Assembly (NCBI RefSeq): GCF_001889165.1
Contig: NZ_CP016020.1
Span: forward strand, 372,001-436,000
DNA length: 64,000 nt
Reading direction: 5' to 3'
From: Bacillus weihaiensis
GTDB taxonomy: Bacteria > Bacillota > Bacilli > Bacillales > Bacillaceae
Program-made: the position numbers and the translations under genes
Part shown: piece by piece, positions 22,646-26,961 of the stretch
Position numbering within the stretch: position 1 is the stretch's first letter
Layout: each line of letters begins with the position of its first letter
The notes under the pieces: generated by a model
The model's input: only the letters and a program-made list of their open reading frames with translations
Told to the model about the DNA's origin: nothing
The model's database searches: none

Positions 22646-23083
22646 ATGAAAATTGAAACAAAATATCATGGAGAGATTACGTTAGAAGAAACATCCATTA
22701 TGCACTTTCAGAATGGGCTTCCAGGTTTTATAGAAGAAAAGAAATTTGTCCTTCTTCCATTAGATAGTGAATCTCCATTTATGATTTTACAGTCGATTGT
22801 AACGAAAGATTTAGGATTTATATTAGTCAATCCATTTCAATTCTTCCATAGCTATGAGTTTGAGCTTTCAGCAGTAGATAAAGAGCTATTAGAGATAAAG
22901 GAAGAAAAGGATGTCGCTGTTTGGACTATTTTAACAGTAAAGGATCCATTTGTAGAATCAACAGCAAATCTACAAGCGCCCGTTATTTTTAACATTCGAA
23001 ACAATGTCGGAAAACAAGTTATCTTAAATCATACGATGTATCAAACGAGGGAAAAACTGTTTCCTGAAAAAATAGAGAAATAG
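22646..23083 (+). CDS. fliW: Flagellar assembly factor FliW
   Basis: 145 residues with the FliW core: [31 protein letters not shown] and [12 protein letters not shown]. FliW binds free flagellin or CsrA; when flagellin is exported, FliW frees flagellin to be retranslated by blocking CsrA. The start codon directly follows the yviE stop, so the genes are coupled. Confidence 0.94.
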
Positions 23084-23094
23084 GAGGTGGAAGT

Positions 23095-23328
23095 ATGCTT
23101 GTTCTAACAAGAAAATTAAACGAATCGATTCAAATTGGCGAAAATATTGAAATTACAGTGCTATCGGTGAAGGGGGATCAAATTAAGCTTGGAATTAAGG
23201 CTCCACAAGATATTGAGGTTCACCGAAAAGAGGTTTATATGTCTATTCAAGAGTCCAACAATGAAGCAGCTTCTATCCTCCCCAATATCATCGACATCTT
23301 AAAGAACACATCGAAAAACCTTAAGTAA
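23095..23328 (+). CDS. csrA: Carbon storage regulator CsrA
   Basis: 77 residues. N-terminal [23 protein letters not shown] and [17 protein letters not shown] match CsrA in outline. It is an RNA-binding dimer that represses hag translation. GGAGGTGG precedes ATG. Confidence 0.95.
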
Positions 23329-23497: not shown

Positions 23498-25222
23498 ATG
23501 AGAATTAATCATAATATCGCAGCTTTAAACACTTATCGTCAGTTGAATAGTGCTTCAACTGCACAATCTAAATCTATGGAGAAATTATCTTCAGGTCTTC
23601 GTATTAACCGTGCAGGAGATGATGCTGCAGGTCTAGCAATCTCTGAAAAAATGCGTGGACAAATTCGTGGTTTAGACCAAGCATCTCGTAATGCTCAAGA
23701 TGGTATAAGCTTGATTCAAACTGCCGAAGGTGCATTAAATGAAACTCACGATATTCTTCAACGTATGCGTGAATTATCTGTTCAAGCTTCTAATGATACA
23801 AACACCGATACTGACCGTGGAGCAATTCAAAAGGAAATTGACCAATTAACAAATGAGATTGACCGTATTGGTAATACAACACAGTTTAACAATAAAAATT
23901 TATTAGATGGCTCTCAATCTCAAAGTGTAACTTTAAATAATACAAATACCAAAGTACTAAAAGCCGAAGTAGTAACTAGCACAGAAACAGGAACCTACTC
24001 ACTTCAAGTAGCAAATAAGAGTACTACTGCTGCAAATTTAGCGGCTAATGGAACTGGGGTTACAAGTGCAGATATTACTATTAATGATACTGGTTTCGAT
24101 GTAAATCAATCATATTCAGTTAAAGTTGAAGATGGTAGTAATAGTGGTAAAAAATTAACTTTTATGAGTGAAGATGGTACTGTTATTGATACACAAGATG
24201 ATGTAGATGTATCAAGTGCTGTTAGTTTAGACGCAAGTGGCACAACAACATTAGGAATTGGTGCTGGTAAAATTACTGGAAACGGTACTATGAAATTTGA
24301 TATTGGTATTAAGGCTGACTATACGGTAACTAATACTACGACTAACCAAGCTACAGCTAAAACTTTGACAACAACTGATGGTACTGTTAATGTTGGGGCA
24401 TTCCAATTAACGGTTGATAAAACTTTAACTGATGCTACTGATGCTACTGCATTAGGAGTAAGTGGTGAAGCAGTTCAGTTGCAAATTGGTGCAAATGAAG
24501 ACCAAAATATGCTAGTTGCAGTTAGAGATATGAGAGCACAAAATTTAGGTGTGGATAATATTGATGTTTCTTCATACGATAATGCTAAAGATGCAATTTC
24601 TACTATTGACAATGCTATAAAAACTGTATCAGAAGAACGTTCAAAACTTGGTGCATACCAAAACCGTTTAGAACACACAATTAACAACTTAGGTACATCT
24701 TCTGAAAACCTAACAGCTGCAGAATCACGTGTTCGTGACGTAGATTATGCTTTAGCTGCATAAGCAGTGAAAAGCACAGTCGTCCTAGCTGGTAACGGCT
24801 AGAGATCATAATCGGGTGAATTGCTGGAAACCCCTTAGAGCTTTTCTTACCACAACGTAGTTGGAAACGACATGCGTGATTGGTTTGAAAAAAGAAAAGA
24901 TTGGGCAATCAGCAGCCAAGCTCCTGTCTCGAAAGAGTGGAGAAGGTTCAACGACTAGGATAGACCATCTAAGGTGAAAGCTATGGTGATGAAATCCGTA
25001 GGTGAAACAATGTACATCAGCATTGTGAATCCGAAGTGCCCGACCCCTACTAGAATGCTAGAGGGTGAAGATATAGTCTAGTCATTTATGAAAATAAATG
25101 TTCGCACGATGGCGAAAGAAATGATGAACCAAACTAAGAATTCTATTCTTAGCCAAGCTGCTCAAGCAATGCTTGCTCAAGCTAACCAACAACCACAAGG
25201 AGTTCTCCAACTTCTTCGTTAA
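23498..25222 (+). CDS. hag: Flagellin Hag, split by a group I intron
   Basis: Exon 1 is 23498-24745 (416 codons), exon 2 is 25109-25222 (37 codons plus stop), giving 453 residues. Exon 1 has the D0/D1 N-terminus (MRINHNIAALNTYRQLNSAS; LSSGLRINRAGDDAAGLAIS), a variable middle of about 200 residues, and D1-C ending NLTAAESRVRDVD. Exon 2 restores MAKEMMNQTKNSILSQ and ends QGVLQLLR, the canonical D0 helix. Without splicing the frame reads five more codons (YALAA) and stops at 24761. The exon joint is placed by homology to uninterrupted flagellins and by the terminal G of the intron. It is longer than B. subtilis Hag (304) because of the surface domain. Confidence 0.9.
24746..25108 (+). ncRNA. Group I intron (IA-type) in hag
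   Basis: 363 nt with all four core elements. P: AATTGCTGGAAA (24819-24830). Q: AATCAGCAGCCAAGCTCC (24907-24924). R: GTTCAACGACTA (24946-24957). S: AAGATATAGTCT (25068-25079). Pairings seen: P2 CTAGC/GCTAG (24785-24802), P3 TCGGG (24812)/CCCGA (25039), P4 TGCTG/CAGCA, P6 CTCC/GGAG, P7 GACTA/TAGTC, P8 at 25044-25065, P9 CATTTAT-GAAA-ATAAATG (25083-25100). About 80 nt with extra hairpins between P7 and P3 suggest subgroup IA. No homing endonuclease frame is present. The exon ends in U and the intron in G, as required. P1 is not fully resolved: TTATGC/GCATAA spans the 5' site but the usual U-G wobble is unclear. Confidence 0.93.
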
Positions 25223-26469: not shown

Positions 26470-26961
26470 TTGGATATTGGTGAATTTAGTCAATGGCTCT
26501 TTACAGAGGGGTAAGCAGCCAAAACAATCGAGTCCTATGTGAACGACGTTAAAGGGTTCCAATCATATTTGAATGAGAAGTTGAATGATGTTCCAGTCCT
26601 ATCCCGCTTCTCATTTGTTAGGTACAAGGAACATTTGATGAAGGAGGACTATGCCGTTTTTACCATTAACAAAAAGATTAATAGCTTAAAAGTTTACAAC
26701 GATTTTCTAAGAACCAAAGGATTTCTAAGTGAATCATTCATTCAGTTGAAGCGAGATAGAATCAAAATCGCAGCTGGGAGTGAGGACAACGTGGATGCTC
26801 TTTCGGATGAACAGGTGGAACAATTGCTTTTCTATGTTGAAAATAGAAGCAAGGTTAGTACTCGTAACAAGCTGATTGTCTATTTGTTGCTCTTTGGGGG
26901 AGTAAGGGTCAGTGAACTGATAGAAATCCCCCTAAGAGTAAAATTTCTTCTCATTTGTTAA
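26470..26961 (+). pseudogene. Broken tyrosine recombinase (XerC/integrase type)
   Basis: GGAGGT precedes a TTG at 26470, but TAA at 26512-26514 interrupts the frame (LDIGEFSQWLFTEG-stop-AAKTIESYVNDV). Downstream it continues with the SAM-like core-binding domain (INKKINSLKVYNDFLRTKGF) and the start of the catalytic domain including the first Arg (LIVYLLLFGGVRVSELIEIP). It ends after LRVKFLLIC, before the HxxR and Tyr motifs. So both a nonsense codon and a 3' truncation are present. The stop codon merges with the flaG promoter. Confidence 0.8.

Follow-up and report, generated by a model that had tools for sequence, protein, structure and literature searches.

A group I intron of subgroup IA2 was reportedly described by Hayakawa and Ishizuka (2009, 2012) in the flagellin genes of Geobacillus stearothermophilus and other thermophilic Bacillus. 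Temperature-dependent splicing is known for flagellin group I introns, and the text citing this work makes no mention of a peptide tag in the passage concerned (PMC4853749). According to a passage on bacterial group I introns, in-frame stop codons at the intron start are common (PMC3984707). It has long been asked how self-splicing introns can persist in bacterial protein genes, where ribosomes arrive ahead of splicing, and the usual answer is that translation halts at a stop codon before ribosomes run into the ribozyme; at the locus analyzed here, the fate of the premature protein, too, seems to be set by the intron. The E. coli ssrA tag, AANDENYALAA, ends in YALAA, and RqcH of Bacillus adds alanine tails to unfinished proteins that are then read by ClpXP, as outlined in part of PMC11317155. 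Within the ssrA tag, the terminal Ala-Ala is described as the most important element for ClpXP, other Ala-Ala ends likewise target ClpXP, and changes of the Leu or Tyr raise KM only modestly (passages of PMC7652416).

We analyzed a 64,000-nucleotide stretch of the Bacillus weihaiensis genome (the window) containing a flagellin gene interrupted, as in the related bacterium G. stearothermophilus, by a group I intron. The first 15 nt of this intron encode an ssrA-like C-terminus, followed by an in-frame stop. As with ssrA tagging by tmRNA, an incomplete protein would end C-terminally in ...YALAA, or ...AA-COOH, whereas the intron tag is written in the same transcript ahead of a normal stop codon, making tmRNA unnecessary. 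The resemblance extends to the alanine tails added by RqcH, in that unfinished proteins would acquire Ala-ended C-termini legible to ClpXP; the intron tag is encoded, however, and RqcH adds Ala without a template. While the intron is of a known kind, the coding module appears new as far as open-literature searches reach: the open-library literature, with most subscription papers outside its coverage, yielded no paper describing a degron or a C-terminal replica encoded by an intron.

Intron identity, splice junction and P1 helix

A covariance search placed RF00028 at 24736-25100 on the plus strand (96.3 bits against a gathering score of 50, E 1.3e-23, model positions 1-253), the sole RNA-family match in the window at the gathering threshold. 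This agreed with the first-pass annotation, made from the sequence without database searches, which had located a group I intron at this place inside the flagellin gene (Table 1) and had described its conserved core and paired helices, its GAAA-capped P9 and its terminal G. A consensus fold of 20 divergent relatives showed covarying helices and comprised 94 pairs, 34 of which carried at least one change on both sides. Removal of the 363 nt joins RDVD to MAKEMMNQTK, as previously proposed, and this junction is contiguous or near-identical in relatives without an intron at this position, hereafter site A. An alternative junction giving RDVDYAKEMM was rejected because uninterrupted relatives have RDVDMAKEMM, or a sequence close to it, and because it cannot accommodate a U.G pair. 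The sense strand of the intron contains no long frame (longest stop-free run, 40 residues), which bears out the earlier statement that an endonuclease frame is missing; one frame of the antisense strand is open over 83 residues. Judged by its sequence, the intron is a compact group I ribozyme of a known kind, predicted to be self-splicing and without an endonuclease.

Table 1. Coordinates and supporting evidence of the flagellin intron features in the window, with the intron sites B and C found in relatives
Feature	Position	Strand	Content or evidence
Flagellin exon 1	23498..24745	+	416 codons, ends SRVRDVD; Flagellin_N match at the gene
P1 and extension	24743..24784	+	fold of -16.7 kcal/mol; consensus fold
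Group I intron	24746..25108	+	363 nt, terminal G; RF00028 and consensus fold of 20 relatives
Candidate in-frame tag YALAA and stop TAA	24746..24763	+	read solely from unspliced RNA
Internal guide sequence GUCGUC	24779..24784	+	window fold, relatives, consensus fold
P9 hairpin, GAAA loop	25083..25100	+	RF00028 match; consensus-fold columns 371-388
Flagellin exon 2	25109..25222	+	reads MAKEMMNQTKNSILSQAAQAMLAQANQQPQGVLQLLR, then stop (MAKEMM...VLQLLR)
Site-B introns	near the gene's end		L013, L076, L120, L122 etc. (55 loci), plus L121, L313, L338
Site-C introns	before flagellin's last 15 residues		L317, L318, L320-L322, L325, L341, L343-L350

The P1 helix had been thought to lack a clear U-G pair at the splice site. 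Such a pair exists, however, as U24745.G24779 in the fold of the window strand, and it recurs in 20/20 divergent introns of the consensus fold (columns 9-52), whose pairs are the same as in the window. In the P1 core, exon GAU at 24743-24745 pairs with the guide at 24779-24781 (G24743-C24781, A24744-U24780, U24745.G24779), and these pairs run on into a long intron hairpin (24746-24778) that carries the tag codons on its 5' strand and the stop codon in its apical loop. The segment 24740-24784 folds at -16.7 kcal/mol, a stability equaled by none of 200 shuffles. The guide GTCGTC was present in 74/74 site-A introns collected with RF00028 and in 113/113 among the pattern-scan matches listed, and the last exon base showed no changes on the intron tree. 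Exon GAC at 24737-24739 is able to pair with 24782-24784, which may be why the third base of this Asp codon changed only twice on the tree, compared with 37 times for the next codon. Versions of P1 adjoining the splice site (GUAG with CUGC, or UUAUGC with GCAUAA) fail in relatives and were dropped in favor of U24745.G24779 because 24742 changes and 24760 is free there.

Such introns are far from rare, contrary to what had been stated: 196 of 397 genomes sampled from the order contained an RF00028 match at E <= 0.001, and 74 of the 159 RF00028-derived loci examined were flagellin introns at the same site. The initial interpretation was sound as to the compact intron, its junction and its lack of an endonuclease, but it missed the P1 pair, overstated rarity and left the unspliced frame unread. 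PF00669 was detected in two genes of the genome, the interrupted flagellin and a shorter gene 2.4 kb upstream that we take to be FlgL-like. Because the sole detected flagellin gene carries the intron, filament assembly should depend on splicing. An ORF of 140 codons at 26539-26961, resembling a truncated tyrosine recombinase, sits among the flagellar genes.

The unspliced frame in the window and at site A of relatives

Read without splicing, the gene ends in RDVD-YALAA-stop, with TAA at 24761-24763 and a product of 421 residues instead of 453. The host tmRNA tag, as called by ARAGORN, is GKTNNNLALAA and ends in LALAA. In 52 other intron-bearing genomes, 33 tmRNA tags were called, all ending in AA, so that 34/34 tags called in the 53 genomes examined share this end; the other 19 of the 52 had tmRNA genes that went uncalled by ARAGORN despite strong Rfam matches (L186-L190, L370-L383). 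The residue preceding Ala-Ala, which is Leu in the window and E, S, Q, K, F, I or A in some relatives, showed no clear agreement with the host tmRNA tag when compared by eye. The pattern of kept (Y..AA) and free residues in the tag fits the ranking of elements read by ClpXP, and P1 may be a further constraint on the Tyr codon.

We searched 80 genomes of the family and 397 of the order with RF00028, and the 159 loci examined comprised the best matches and 100 further listed places, all gathered by the Rfam model with the tag ignored; one locus at 26.6 bits, under the cut-off, was excluded from the counts (L003). Site A was occupied in 74 loci and a second site, site B, in 55, with both occupied in 31 and neither in 61, one of which (L121) was later recognized as site-B. 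The window's flagellin gene contains intron A only. All 74 site-A introns were distinct in sequence and would add 5, 6 or 8 residues, reading YALAA in 46, YVLAA in 6, YTEAA, YAFAA and YDLIAA in 3 each, and nine other forms in the rest. The tail ended in AA in 69/74, the remaining 5 ending in VA, AV or AS.

Named genomes were additionally scanned with a pattern that specified the exon and the intron core and left the tag unspecified, returning at least 118 stretches. Seven of 118 contained no flagellin sequence at the match, and one of the 114 unique rows was an uninterrupted flagellin (L223); their exclusion left at least 113 unique site-A introns, and 109 of the 113 among the matches listed end in AA. 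The hosts include Geobacillus, Anoxybacillus, Halobacillus, Planococcus, Sporosarcina, Heyndrickxia coagulans and a strain labelled B. subtilis. Combining both collections gave at least 156 unique site-A introns, of which, among the matches listed, 148 end in AA and the other 8 in VA, TA, AV or AS. In some clades, E, Q, K or S precedes Ala-Ala. Searches of 299 genomes from the phylum and 37 from one class also turned up site-A introns outside the order, reading YAEAA (4) and YAKAA (1). The intron of Geobacillus proteiniphilus (L262) reads YALAA and that of Parageobacillus caldoxylosilyticus (L263) YAFVA. A further site-A intron (L092:893-1260, minus strand) is without the usual stop and reads three more codons, giving YALAASAA before a TGA stop.

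Selection on the peptide and competing explanations

Substitutions were counted on a tree of the intron body built from 156 introns, with tail counts taken from the 140 that have five-codon tails. Changes at the first, second and third codon positions numbered 2, 0 and 1 for TAT; 7, 10 and 10 for GCT; 12, 11 and 10 for TTA; 1, 5 and 13 for the second GCT; 1, 1 and 57 for GCN; and 0, 0 and 17 for TAA. The two terminal Ala codons thus accumulated 8 changes at their four first and second bases versus 70 at their two third bases (binomial p ~4e-25), and the 15 nt past the stop show no such rhythm. These substitution patterns lend good support to the view that the last two codons of the peptide and the stop are under selection. 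Shared ancestry or chance, in which YALAA was an accident of one ancestral intron and the tag is under no selection, would account for the clustering of site-A introns on the core tree, which left out 11 sequences failing the pattern and is without branch support values. We regard this explanation as exceedingly improbable, and the substitution pattern already contradicts it, provided that the tree-based counts are correct, with 57 changes at one wobble base versus 2 at its two neighbors. Furthermore, different peptides with the same AA end occur at site C, and AA is an infrequent end elsewhere, expected in 0.3% of random tails, found in 13/934 other ORFs of at least 150 codons, and found in 0/156 and 1/156 when these introns, among the matches listed, are read in their other two frames.

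Because the tag stretch also forms a hairpin, part of its conservation, including that of the Tyr codon, may be due to the RNA, and features beyond pairing were sought in 89 introns of equal length. The hairpin is stable and shows two-sided changes, and the codon rhythm is absent on the tree from tag codons 2 and 3, which accords with the first 18 nt being kept for P1 and its extension, the peptide being a by-product. That RNA structure alone is responsible nevertheless seems quite improbable to us, because the Ala-codon bases 24755, 24756, 24758 and 24759 had changed on the coding strand in only 0, 4, 0 and 1 of the 89 introns, while their RNA partners vary far more often, even to mismatches. 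Two-sided changes were commonest at the third bases 24751 (17) and 24757 (14) and rarer in codons 2 and 3, which are unconstrained, at 24749 (5), 24750 (4) and 24752 (1); in this count the guide GTCGTC was appended by script once found per row, so that its three exon-guide pairs are no independent count. The unpaired loop was likewise free at its wobble base only, with 24760 being C in 26, T in 25, A in 21 and G in 17 introns, 24761-24762 being UA in 89/89 and 24763 being A or G. The Ala-Ala end also persists through changed hairpins, insertions and a lost stop, as in YDLIAA, YDLAAA and YALAASAA. Alternatively, the Ala-Ala-stop context might favor fast termination or ribosome release, leaving the ribozyme free to fold, with proteolysis uninvolved; in-frame stops near intron starts are, in the passage available on this point, widely regarded as protecting intron folding (PMC3984707). 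We consider this account improbable. In most other introns examined, the stop near the intron start is not preceded by Ala-Ala, and in many of those in nrdE and thyA it directly follows the exon; site-B introns end in native LLR, LLQ or LLG. Proteolysis appears to be the most likely use of the tag.

Proposed fate of the unspliced protein and other insertion sites

Protein made from unspliced RNA is probably marked for destruction by five intron codons, and we consider it quite likely that the intron self-tags unspliced flagellin for ClpXP, the P1 extension doubling as a short coding cassette. Ribosomes trailing RNA polymerase would arrive at the intron, 1.25 kb into the gene, ahead of splicing, translate the five intron codons (YALAA) and halt in the P1 apical loop, before the guide and the core of the ribozyme. 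The truncated flagellin would then be marked for ClpXP by its Ala-Ala carboxyl terminus, in the manner of ssrA tags and Ala tails, and upon ribosome release P1 could refold, leading to excision of the intron and synthesis of full-length flagellin. Three points are inferred here: ribosomes translate unspliced RNA, the tag is recognized by ClpXP, and the cell gains by clearing non-exportable flagellin. Left untagged, the truncated protein would not be exportable and might still hold FliW, falsely signalling 'enough flagellin'; the tag would clear this FliW-holding form. Directly upstream of the flagellin gene lie two genes that we take, by resemblance, to be fliW (22646-23083) and csrA (23095-23328). 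A tag of this kind would link introns to tmRNA/RQC-type quality control, and it could tie flagellin output to the rate of splicing and hence to temperature.

At site C, encountered in the phylum and class searches, the tails read DEMAA, EVRWAA, EEIAA, EGIAA, EGLAA, EAPAA, ERMAA, EEMAA or EGMAA, with an AA end in 15/15. At site B, by contrast with these Ala-Ala ends, the first 42 coding bases of the intron encode, in frame, a replica of the 14 residues with which native flagellin ends (for example, replica QSNQMPQGVLQLLR and exon QANQQPQGVLQLLR, each followed by a stop), and unspliced RNA would still yield full-length flagellin. The last residue of the replica matched that of the host exon in 55/55 first-found introns (R in 50, Q in 3, G in 2). 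As the first site-B list required a second C-terminal copy, the introns were recounted from the 3' exon side, which presupposes no replica: 73 C-terminal exons were detached from a 5' exon, 58 being preceded by a replica and 14 by an AA tail. For the remaining one (L325), the script found no 5' exon and the tail is EAPAA; no tail other than a replica or AA occurred among the 73. We think it likely that the 5' end of flagellin group I introns is a coding module selected for the fate of the unspliced protein, an Ala-Ala degron at sites A and C and a replica of the native C-terminus at site B. If so, self-splicing introns would avoid harm, or exert regulation, by two opposite routes where transcription and translation are coupled.

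The group I introns of the same order in genes that we take to be nrdE and thyA resemble the flagellin introns in RF00028 membership and in having an in-frame stop near the intron start, but among the 61 loci without a site-A or site-B call, many of them stop directly after the exon. Some nrdE introns read KSA, KVA, RVA, KTA or RVV before the stop, and these A/V-ended tails may represent a weaker form of intron-encoded tag. Single other loci end in SPLVA, SPLAV, KDAA or EQAA, and at six loci (L089, L101, L128, L130, L145 and L146), no frame, flagellin motif or tRNA was found. An nrdE-like gene of the B. weihaiensis genome itself harbors another group I intron (L002:1501-1954, 61.8 bits), with an unspliced frame reading SRRGRVV followed by a stop.
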